DNA from: Pigmentiphaga sp. NML030171
GTDB taxonomy: Bacteria; Pseudomonadota; Gammaproteobacteria; Burkholderiales; Burkholderiaceae_B
Direction: 5' to 3'
Length of the DNA: 64,000 bases
Assembly: GCF_002188635.1 (NCBI RefSeq)
Contig: NZ_NINX01000021.1
Coordinates: forward strand, 62,001 to 126,000
Within the stretch, counting starts at the first letter, position 1. Each line of letters starts with the position of its first letter. Under the pieces are notes generated by a model. It had not been told where the DNA came from, ran no database searches, and saw nothing but the letters and a program-made list of their open reading frames with translations. A program made the position numbers and the translations under genes. Below are positions 10,923-62,274 of the stretch, piece after piece.

Positions 10923-11000
10923 CCAGGGCACAGCGGATCCGGCTCCGCCGGTCCGCCAGTGCCGCCCCCCGGGGGGCGCCCGTCAGGGCGTAGGGGGGGG
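10923..11000 (-). repeat. Dispersed palindromic repeat, family 1, copy C (reverse orientation)
   Basis: Read on the minus strand it runs CCCCCCCTACGCCCTGACGG, then a C-run/G-run palindrome, then GGACCGGCGGAGCCGGATCC and a CCTGG end. The same module occurs at 20251, 61965, 62133 and 62223 and in part at 17593. It lies between convergent genes and overlaps the last codons and stop of the FMN reductase. Confidence 0.8.
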
Positions 11001-20250: not shown

Positions 20251-20330
20251 CCCCCCCCTACGCGCTGACGCGCGCCCCCCAGGGGGCGATGCGGGTGGAC
20301 CGGCGGAGCCGGATCCACCGCATCCTGGGT
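20251..20330 (+). repeat. Dispersed palindromic repeat, family 1, copy D
   Basis: The most complete forward copy: C-run, CTACGCGCTGACGCGCGCC, a CCCCCCAGGGGG palindrome, GCGATGCGGGTGGACCGGC, GGAGCCGGATCC, and a CATCCTGGGT end. It fills most of the gap between fadN-like and thiolase genes. Confidence 0.85.
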
Positions 20331-47798: not shown

Positions 47799-48533
47799 AT
47801 GATCGAGATCAAGCATGTCAGCAAGTGGTACGGGTCTTTCCAGGTGTTGGCCGATTGCACGACGTCGGTGGCGACCGGCGAAGTGGTGGTGGTGTGCGGG
47901 CCATCGGGGTCGGGCAAGTCGACGTTGATCAAGACGGTCAACGCGCTGGAGCCCTTCCAGGAAGGGGAGATCGTGGTGGACGGCATCTCGGTGGGCGATG
48001 CGAAGACGAATCTGCCGAAGCTGCGCTCGAAGGTGGGGATGGTGTTCCAGCATTTCGAGCTGTTTCCCCATTTGTCGGTGATGGACAACCTGACGCTGGC
48101 GCAGGTGAAGGTGCTGGGGCGCGGGAAGGACGAGGCCGAGGAGCGGGCGCAGAAGTTGCTGGACCGGGTGGGGCTGAAGGCGCATCGGGAGAAGTTCCCG
48201 GGGCAGTTGTCGGGGGGGCAGCAGCAGCGGGTGGCGATCGCGCGGGCGTTGTCGATGGACCCGGTCGCGATGCTGTTCGATGAGCCGACGTCGGCGCTGG
48301 ATCCCGAGATGGTCAACGAGGTGCTGGATGTGATGGTGGATCTGGCGAAAGAGGGAATGACGATGATGGTGGTGACCCACGAGATGGGGTTCGCCAGGAA
48401 GGTGGCGCATCGGGTGGTGTTCATGGACGGGGGAAGGATCGTGGAGGACACCGACAAGGAAACGTTCTTCGATCCGTCGGCGCAGCGGTCCGAGCGTGCC
48501 CGCCATTTCCTGTCGAAGATCCTGCCGCATTGA
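47799..48533 (+). CDS. gltL: Glutamate/aspartate ABC transporter ATP-binding protein
   Basis: A 244-residue ATPase. Walker [10 protein letters not shown] (~34-42), signature LSGGQQQR, Walker [12 protein letters not shown] and the switch VVTHEMGFA are intact. Last gene of the operon. AGGAGAG precedes the ATG. The transcript runs into the large palindrome that begins 16 bp after the stop. Confidence 0.96.
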
Positions 48534-48548
48534 TTTAGAAAGGGGGGC

Positions 48549-48814
48549 GGTCTGTACGGCGGCAGGGGGCGGCTGGCGGGCACGGCCCTGTAAGGGCTAG
48601 CGAAGCCGGTCTCGGCTTCGCCGAGACTTCCCGGGTTTCAGGCGTCCGTCGGGGCGGGCGCAGAACTCGCGCGGGGATAGCCCCCCGGGCTATCCCTACT
48701 GCCGCGCTCGAACAGCTGCGCCCTTGCTTCCCCGCCGGACGCCTGAAACCCGGCGGCTCCGAATAGCCCTCACAGGGCCGTGCCCGCCAGCCGCCCCCTG
48801 CCGCCGTACAGACC
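48549..48814. repeat. 266-bp composite palindrome between convergent genes
   Basis: Fills most of the 306-bp gap between gltL and a convergent LysR gene. Outer arms 48549-48591 and 48772-48814 are a perfect 43-bp inverted repeat. Inward stems are 48593-48599/48764-48770, 48601-48608/48754-48761 (one mismatch), 48631-48648/48736-48753 (18 bp perfect), 48650-48654/48730-48734 and 48656-48663/48716-48723. The left arm alone has an extra 8-bp hairpin (48609-48627), and the apex holds GGGATAGCCC/GGGCTATCCC (48674-48696). About 88 base pairs in all. It could serve as a two-way transcription stop, an RNA element or a transposon-like miniature repeat; no flanking duplication is evident. Confidence 0.9.
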
Positions 48815-48839
48815 TGGAAGAGGGGGCGAGGTATCCCCG

Positions 48840-49760
48840 TTACCACGACAACCCTTCTTCCCTGTCCCGTCGCCGATGCGCGAACCGTTCCGCCAGGAAA
48901 TCCACGAAGGCGGTGGTCTTGGCGGACAGATTCTGGCGTTCGGGGTAGAGCGCGAAGATGTCGGCCGAGGGGGTGTGCCATTCTTCCAGGACGGCGACCA
49001 GCCTGCCCGAGCGCAGGTAGGCGCCGACTTCCCATTCCGAACGCATGATGATGCCGTGGCCCTCCAGGGCCCAGTACAGGGCGCTTTCGCCGTCGTTGGC
49101 GCTGAGGGGGCCGCGCACCTTGACGGTTTCGGCGCGGGTACCGGAGCGCAGGTGCCAGGTGCCGTAGGCGGTATCGCTTTCACGGATGACGATGCAGGGG
49201 TGGCGGGCCAGGTCGCGCGGGGAGGCGGGGGGCGCGTGGCGCTTCAGGTAGATGGGCGAGGCGCACAGCAGGCGGCGGTTGGAGGCGATCTTGCGGGCGG
49301 TCAGGCGGGCGTCGGGGAGGTCGCCGATGCGGATGCAGACGTCGAAGGATTCGTCCAGCAGGCTGGCGGGGCGGTCGGTCAGGTGCAACTGGGCCTGGAC
49401 GGCGGGGAAGCGTTTGAGGAAATCGGACAGGGCGGGGGCGATGTGGTGGCGGCCGAAGCCCAGGGTGGCGTTGATGCGCAGCAGGCCCCGGGGTTCGTCG
49501 CGGCTGCGGCCGACGGTATGTTCCAGTTCCTCGACGTCGGCCAGGATGCGGTTGCCTTCGCGCAGGTAGAGCTCGCCCTCGTGGGTCAGCGCGATGCGGC
49601 GGGTGGTGCGGTTGAGCAGGCGCACGCCCAGGCGCCGCTCCAGCCGCTGCAGGCGCTTGCTGACGGCCGGGGTGGACAGGCCCAGTTCGCGGGCGGCGGA
49701 GGACAGGCTGCCCTGGCGGATCAGGAGCGAAAAGAAGGCGAGGTCGGAGATGGTGTCCAT
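48840..49760 (-). CDS. LysR-family regulator (DmlR-like)
   Basis: A 306-residue LysR protein: SLSSAARELGLSTPAVSKRLQRLERRLGVRLLNRTTR is a textbook HTH (~16-52). Start MDTISDLAFF at 49760. It is divergent from a tartrate/D-malate-type dehydrogenase, the dmlR-dmlA arrangement. A 7-bp inverted repeat with an 11-bp spacer overlaps its own start codon, consistent with autoregulation. Confidence 0.9.
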   Translation of the reverse strand: MDTISDLAFFSLLIRQGSLSSAARELGLSTPAVSKRLQRLERRLGVRLLNRTTRRIALTHEGELYLREGNRILADVEELEHTVGRSRDEPRGLLRINATLGFGRHHIAPALSDFLKRFPAVQAQLHLTDRPASLLDESFDVCIRIGDLPDARLTARKIASNRRLLCASPIYLKRHAPPASPRDLARHPCIVIRESDTAYGTWHLRSGTRAETVKVRGPLSANDGESALYWALEGHGIIMRSEWEVGAYLRSGRLVAVLEEWHTPSADIFALYPERQNLSAKTTAFVDFLAERFAHRRRDREEGLSW

Positions 49761-49782
49761 TGTTAACTTCCATTCAACAATG
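49758..49782. promoter_or_regulatory. LysR-type box overlapping the regulator start codon
   Basis: CATTGTT (49758-49764) and AACAATG (49776-49782) are exact reverse complements with an 11-bp spacer, a T-N11-A type site. The first three bases are the complement of the LysR start codon. The dehydrogenase gene starts 119 bp away on the other strand. Confidence 0.6.
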
Positions 49783-49901
49783 GTTTTTATCTCGTTCAAT
49801 TATGAAGGACAAGCGCGAGATACACTTGATCCATTCCATCCCGCACCGGTTTTCGCGACAGGCTTGCGTGCCGGCGCCATCACGACAAGGACGTTTCATC
49901 C

Positions 49902-61964: not shown

Positions 61965-62044
61965 CCCCCCCCTACGCGCTTACGCGCGCCCCCCAGGGGG
62001 CGAAACCGGCGGACTGGCAAAGCCAGATCCGCGGTTTCCTGGGT
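61965..62044 (+). repeat. Dispersed palindromic repeat, family 1, copy E
   Basis: C-run, CTACGCGCTTACGCGCGCC, CCCCCAGGGGG palindrome, then a diverged GGACTGGCAAAGCCAGATCC hairpin and a TCCTGGGT end. It lies head-on to copy F with a 90-bp core between. Confidence 0.8.
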
Positions 62045-62140
62045 CTAGTACGCGCTTCTTGGATTGGATCACCGTTGCTACCGCTGGCAGCCAGCGATAG
62101 CACCCGTGCCAAACCCAAGATAACGGTACTAGACCCAGGA
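62037..62140. repeat. Composite palindrome between repeat copies E and F
   Basis: Arms TCCTGGGTCTAGTAC (62037-62051) and GTACTAGACCCAGGA (62126-62140) are a perfect 15-bp inverted repeat. Inside are TCTTGGATT/AACCCAAGA (62057-62065/62112-62120, one mismatch) and an apical stem GCTACCGCTGG/CCAGCGATAGC (62077-62087/62091-62101, one mismatch). It would fold as a rod-like hairpin of over 30 base pairs. Confidence 0.8.
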
Positions 62141-62212
62141 TGCAGTGGATCCAGCTTTGCCGGTCCACCCGCATCGCCCCCTTGAGGGGGCCCGCGTAGC
62201 GGGTAGGGGGTG
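62133..62212 (-). repeat. Dispersed palindromic repeat, family 1, copy F (reverse)
   Basis: Reverse orientation of the family: ACCCAGGATGCAGTGGATCC, AGCTTTGCCGGTCCACCC, GCATCGCCCCC then GAGGGGG and a GTAGCGGGTAGGGGG end. Faces copy E. Confidence 0.8.
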
Positions 62213-62222
62213 GGCTTCCCTT

Positions 62223-62274
62223 CCGGTCCACCCGCATCGCCCCCTGGGGGGCGCCCGAAGGGCGTAGGGGGGGG
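62223..62274 (-). repeat. Dispersed repeat, family 1, partial copy G (reverse)
   Basis: CCGGTCCACCCGCATCGCC, CCCTGGGGGG and GCGCCCGAAGGGCGTAGGGG; the outer GGATCC end is missing. It ends 14 bp before the mnmC start. With E and F it makes 61953-62288 almost entirely repeat, with no separate gene. Confidence 0.75.

Follow-up and report, generated by a model that had tools for sequence, protein, structure and literature searches.

A giant palindrome at positions 48549-48814 of the window (the whole 64,000-nucleotide stretch analysed here, from Pigmentiphaga sp. NML030171 contig NZ_NINX01000021.1) is one copy of an old dispersed repeat family of Burkholderiales bacteria. Our explanation, to which we assign a probability of roughly 0.55, is that the repeat was formerly mobile and that its working part is a giant one-strand bulged hairpin, probably an RNA of the minus strand. 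Thirteen copies in the source genome, a fold that recurs across genera while its stems change, an excess of G-U over A-C mispairs on one strand, and changes mirrored between the two arms at matching loci carry this reading.

Structure of the window copy

A preliminary description of the sequence had placed a perfect 43-bp outer inverted repeat at 48549-48814; the coordinates are right and the outer 43 pairs perfect, with 98% complementarity over 51 nt between arms 48549-48599 and 48764-48814. The 18-bp inner stem it mentioned is formed by 48631-48648 with 48736-48753, and the hairpin present on one side only is 48609-48627 (8 pairs). Its figure of about 88 base pairs was too low, the minimum-energy folds containing 113 pairs on the plus strand and 114 on the minus. 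Fold energies are -240.3 (plus) and -247.8 (minus) kcal/mol, where shuffles average -133.2 and -137.9, corresponding to z = -19.8 and -22.0, and none of 200 shuffles was as stable on either strand. The minus strand was taken as RNA-like, and the parts of the element are listed below in that direction, followed by the features around it.

48549..48814 (-): whole element, minus strand taken as RNA-like
48585-48778 (-): match to covariance model R2, 195.5 bits; R2 was trained on a set that includes the window copy
48764..48814 (-): outer arm, 5' side of RNA-like strand; forms a 51-bp helix with 48549-48599 when the minus strand is folded
48754..48761 (-): second helix, 5' side, predicted to pair with 48601-48608
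48730..48753 (-): inner variable stem, 5' side, 18 + 5 bp, partner 48631-48654
48724..48729 (-): conserved bulge, AAGCAA in the window copy, unpaired in the fold
48716..48723 (-): helix, 5' side, predicted to pair with 48656-48663
48664..48715 (-): apical part, internal loop TGTTCGAG / CGAGTT plus apical hairpin 48675-48695
48631..48654 (-): inner variable stem, 3' side, partner of 48730-48753
48609..48627 (-): one-sided 8-bp hairpin, predicted
48549..48599 (-): outer arm, 3' side of RNA-like strand, partner of 48764-48814
48538..48549 (+): imperfect direct repeat GAAAGGGGGGCG on the left flank, role putative
48817..48828 (+): right imperfect direct repeat GAAGAGGGGGCG, role putative
47799..48533 (+): ABC-transporter ATPase gene (gltL-like), stop 15 nt before the element; ORF named from sequence character
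48840..49799 (-): LysR-type regulator gene, end 25 nt from the element; ORF named from sequence character

Over the element, Rfam 15 has no family above the gathering cut-off, the best chance matches lying below it, and the loci of 20 relatives returned nothing from Rfam except one 16S rRNA piece. Elsewhere in the window, 14784-14950 matches the Manganese (yybP-ykoY) riboswitch at 80.7 bits.

Copies and taxonomic spread

The source genome (5.86 Mb, 57 contigs) holds 13 copies at E 2e-25 or better, counting the window copy and excluding its antisense match; a 166-bp core is common to all of them, and the outer arm sequence is mostly not shared. Eight genomes of the genus, including Alcaligenaceae bacterium SAGV5, yielded 58 distinct copies or fragments, of which 48 complete ones were used; 8 others were truncated and two lay at the starts of contigs. 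Covariance model R1 detected the family of elements in 54 of 121 genomes of the taxonomic family (25 of 43 genera), several of them with at least 21 scored candidates each. Model R2, with the best 10 candidates per genome scored, extended the distribution to at least 30 of 250 genomes across the order and at least 20 of 121 genera. The first 16 order matches include two (L318, L320) that lack the loop pattern described below, as does L325, and these few distant matches may be other hairpins. A strict sequence pattern for the core, unlike the covariance model, matched the source genome alone among 300 order genomes.

Uniqueness or an assembly artefact, which the preliminary description had entertained should the palindrome occur only here and without covariation, is rejected by the 13 copies in the source genome and the 54 positive family genomes: the covariance-model search of source and related genomes found the repeat widely. 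An origin in phages or plasmids was likewise rejected, the element having no blastn match in either; in the same comparison three relatives gave no match and a fourth short tail matches only. Among individually searched replicons, the Variovorax paradoxus VAI-C megaplasmid CP063167.1 carries copies at 173560-173716 and 173995-174137, and a Caballeronia megaplasmid carries none. A literature search of open-access papers found no description of the repeat. Eight copies (L165, L170, L179, L073, L080, L174, L229, L307) lie at contig ends or have N runs inside the hairpin, a sign of the structure hampering sequencing or assembly.

A conserved fold with freely changing stems

What is conserved is the fold, a giant hairpin whose internal loops stay fixed while its stems change freely. 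All 48 complete in-genus copies retain the hairpin layout, a shared 166-bp core flanked by 33-51-bp arms, and long complementary outer arms are present in nearly all of them though arm sequence varies, the exceptions being L061, L175 and L069 (broken or hybrid). When 42 copies from different genera were aligned, both partners had changed in 72 of the 79 pairs, and 94.5% of cells pair, whereas shuffles reach 61.9% and sliding the partners gives 31-43%; these figures are biased in favour of covariation because the alignment was fitted to the structure and the copies are related. The same covariation appears in an in-genus MAFFT alignment of 45 copies (3 of the 48 excluded) that was not structure-fitted, where the inner stem has all four Watson-Crick pairs at most positions. 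Across genera the second helix is kept least well, with 84.2% of its cells pairing; for the one-sided hairpin the figure is 99.7%, and both-sided changes occur in all 8 of its pairs. The compensatory changes that the preliminary description had thought worth seeking are thus abundant, and its impression of an old structure still kept in register is borne out both by this very strong covariation and by the mirrored arm changes considered below.

The loops behave differently from the stems. The bulge AAGCAA(G) opposite the inner stem is unpaired yet nearly invariant in the 45 aligned copies, and the internal loop TGTYYGAG / CGAGTY occurs in 48/48 in-genus copies, 23/27 family-search loci and 16/19 order-search loci.

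Strand asymmetry of mispairs

Isolated mispairs within stems are strongly asymmetric on the window minus strand. Across the 48 in-genus copies the ratio of G-U to A-C is 28:3 (binomial p 5e-6, relatedness ignored), or 21:3 when distinct 7-base contexts count once, and in 24 copies from other genera (30 family-search loci minus 6 excluded) it is 21:4 (p 9e-4, relatedness again ignored). A single genome with 20 copies, G337, gave 15:5 (p 0.04 with relatedness ignored), which by distinct context becomes 9:5 and is not significant. The outer arms alone show 26:6, and the inner stem on the RNA-like strand has 26 G-U cells and no A-C cell over 45 copies. Were double-stranded DNA alone acted upon, the counts should be even; the constraint thus appears strand-specific, pointing to a single strand in its folded state as what matters, in the simplest case RNA. 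We therefore read the bias as most probably selection on a folded RNA of the minus strand; possible other sources of the G-U excess are a mutation bias linked to transcription and transposition of DNA as a single strand. Among the options raised in the preliminary description, that of a structured RNA has gained from this strand-specific fold.

Arm evolution and decay at matching loci

Across eight comparisons between matching loci, 16 changes in one arm have a mirror counterpart in the opposite arm and 5 have none; orthology was established by search for two loci and judged from flanks for the rest, and some comparisons share a sequence and so are not independent. The mirrored changes include 3/3 internal single-base indels and three multi-base clusters of 2-3 bases. 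Stepwise selection on pairing would hardly produce mirrored indels in a stem of 30-50 bp, and the pattern suggests that the arms were copied from one another, which would have held them identical during replication or repair.

Taken further, such a process (template switching or arm conversion) might by itself maintain the palindrome, with no function at all. The mirrored indels and clusters are what it would produce, a 40-bp stem would hardly need such perfection for its stability, and in L079, one copy of L048, and L173 (against L053) the core is inverted relative to the flanks, as recombination between the two arms of the hairpin would leave it. By itself, however, mutation leaves the conservation of unpaired loops across genera unexplained, as it does the one-strand G-U excess, for which a transcription-linked bias could account only if the strand were still transcribed. 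We regard a purely mutational origin as distinctly unlikely, and keep to a constrained single-strand hairpin whose arms are also copied.

Several loci preserve stages of loss. Four genomes carry the element at the L047 locus, one retains arm ends only and others are without it; at L044 copies range from intact through internally deleted to a bare arm. At the window locus relatives G002 and G007 retain a left-arm-like piece and G003 retains nothing, having the flanking direct repeat in a shorter form without the element. G002 and G007 were considered as empty sites and rejected as such, the left-arm-like residues making deletion remnants more likely. Together the remnants and deletions at these three loci indicate that the copies are old and decay by deletion. 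In G005 the L044 locus is split between C10:210272-210919 and C16:57433-58059, the break lying inside an element, and represents either a rearrangement or an assembly join. A comparison of the element with the named gltL loci of 80 species gave a best match of E 0.052, which we regard as noise.

Genomic position

Copies avoid divergently transcribed gene pairs. Where both neighbours were called, none of 45 in-genus copies and none of 24 elsewhere lies between such genes; by neighbour direction (upstream, downstream on the RNA-like strand) the in-genus copies divide into +,- 20, +,+ 15, -,- 10 and -,+ 0, and those of other genera into -,- 11, +,- 10, +,+ 3 and -,+ 0, all raw counts from a custom GC3-based gene caller over copies that are partly orthologous. 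The window copy sits between convergent genes (gltL-like and LysR), and the sense strand of the LysR gene is the RNA-like strand of the element. In other genera, T-rich stretches come after some of the copies.

These positions invite the view that the element terminates transcription in both directions or protects 3' ends, and spread through its usefulness at gene ends: divergent pairs are avoided, the window copy has convergent neighbours, and T-rich stretches follow some copies. Set against this, a consensus scan of 48480-48900 found no promoter-like or terminator-like site, a result informative chiefly on short hairpins and little on so large a one, loops being limited to 3-8; the conserved asymmetric loops exceed what a terminator needs; and insertion elements generally survive better at gene 3' ends. 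The two-way terminator envisaged in the preliminary description is thus unsupported at the window copy by this short-loop scan, while copies do occur at gene 3' ends, and we think it very unlikely as an account of the family. Under the preferred reading of a formerly mobile repeat with a folded strand, any role left to the surviving copies would be that of highly stable structures in 3' regions, blocking or protecting the ends of transcripts; this is the least certain step of the proposal.

Inverted pairs and mobility

An inverted pair within about 1 kb was found at 14 of 47 loci (3 of 30 family-search loci excluded from the count), in all 14 head-to-head with the RNA-like 5' ends facing each other, and the weaker partner exceeds 50 bits in 8 of the 14. 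The two copies on Variovorax paradoxus CP063167.1 are a named case, and three in-genus loci have the same head-to-head pairs. Same-strand neighbours occur at L006, where one core is flipped relative to its flanks, and in G063, which has five in a row. The window copy stands alone, with no inverted partner in the R2 search. An outward-facing tail, [CTA]AAGAA, lies 3' of the core in 31/48 in-genus, 15/27 family and 9/19 order copies, and on the 5' side in 0, 2 and 2, respectively; the window copy lacks it.

Within the genus, some copies or pairs lie inside a MITE-like element with terminal inverted repeats GGCTGAATCGACATTCATG and flanks CTA...TAG, which we take to be IS630-like; the window copy has no such terminal repeats and is surrounded only by the imperfect 12-bp direct repeat, which falls short of a clean target-site duplication. 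A miniature element with terminal repeats GGCTGAATCGACATTCATG, seen at L298-L305, has CTAG as its insertion site, frequently coincides with stop codons and occurs with or without hairpins. In G337, many copies (L268-L287) have beside them short palindromes ending in GCTACA, which resemble REPs of the GTAG type.

Head-to-head pairs and an outward tail are also what might be expected if the conserved strand were DNA, the hairpins serving as recognition ends of single-strand transposition, as in IS200/IS605 elements and REPINs, and the bias marking the strand handled by the enzyme. DNA, too, tolerates G-T pairs better than A-C, so the strand asymmetry would fit. An inverted pair, however, puts both hairpin orientations on each strand, which should blur the bias. 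Moreover the IS200-type transposase domain Y1_Tnp (RAYT) has no match in the source genome and is not associated with the element among 121 family genomes (9/54 positive against 13/67 negative genomes, Fisher p 0.81), and RAYT mobilisation was set aside as unsupported on both counts. We judge single-strand DNA transposition unlikely. No mobilising enzyme was found.

The best reading is that of a dispersed, formerly mobile structured element with a single copy between gltL and the LysR gene; the non-autonomous mobile unit suggested in the preliminary description has gained ground from the dispersal and the paired units. In this proposal a unit of two inverted hairpins would have spread by transposition, and single copies such as that of the window would be left-overs. 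We suggest more tentatively, and with some doubt, that these elements form an order-wide uncatalogued class: a head-to-head dimer of giant bulged hairpins moved by an enzyme not of IS200 type, with concerted arms, RNA-level constraint on the loops and a one-strand G-U bias.

If this reading is true, hundreds of copies across Burkholderiales share a conserved fold absent from RNA libraries, and dozens of matching loci offer a natural series for following the joint change of long palindrome arms in real genomes. Such loci set selection on pairing against arm-to-arm copying as the source of compensatory changes, a matter of wider bearing where covariation is routinely accepted as proof of selection on RNA.

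Comparison with known repeats

By description, the element resembles the ERIC, YPAL and NEMIS repeats in being intergenic, folded, multi-copy and of similar size, and differs in its distribution, which is Burkholderiales. ERIC, YPAL and NEMIS repeats are associated with RNase III processing.

REPINs, as outlined in PMC3116915 and PMC3733652, are dispersed extragenic repeats in which inverted doublets form hairpins with compensatory changes, singlets being probable left-overs. The present element is likewise dispersed, forms hairpins with compensatory changes and occurs at some loci in inverted head-to-head doublets. Each of its hairpins, however, measures about 230-270 bp, against 20-40 bp for a REP, and contains conserved internal loops; its tails are in general not GTAG, whereas REPs and REPINs carry a terminal GTAG or CGTC tag, and it has no association with a RAYT-type transposase.

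Nearer in taxonomy, the Burkholderiales-1 motif is a candidate structured RNA of the same order with no Rfam accession in its table (PMC2864571), a likeness by description only. The Bor-2 repeat of Bordetella bronchiseptica, a related genus, is a 167-bp intergenic repeat with 17 copies (6 complete) and an RNAz score of 1.00 (PMC2267715). In size and copy number, the terms of this comparison, it is close to our multi-copy, intergenic element with its 166-bp core; outer arms, pairs and wider distribution do not figure in the tables of that paper. Bor-2 and our element may belong to one family.

The window also contains, at gene ends, copies of a second repeat that measures about 80-120 bp and is far more abundant (GGATCCGGC...GCCCCCTTGAGGGGGC type; 62134-62222, 62223-62272, 61967-62043, 20253-20329 and 10935-10998). 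Because query sequences contained it, first-look candidates numbered several hundred per genome in most genomes of the genus; it may be Bor-1 of B. bronchiseptica. For the palindrome itself, we propose a place among the dispersed palindromic repeats, with probable constraint at the level of RNA.
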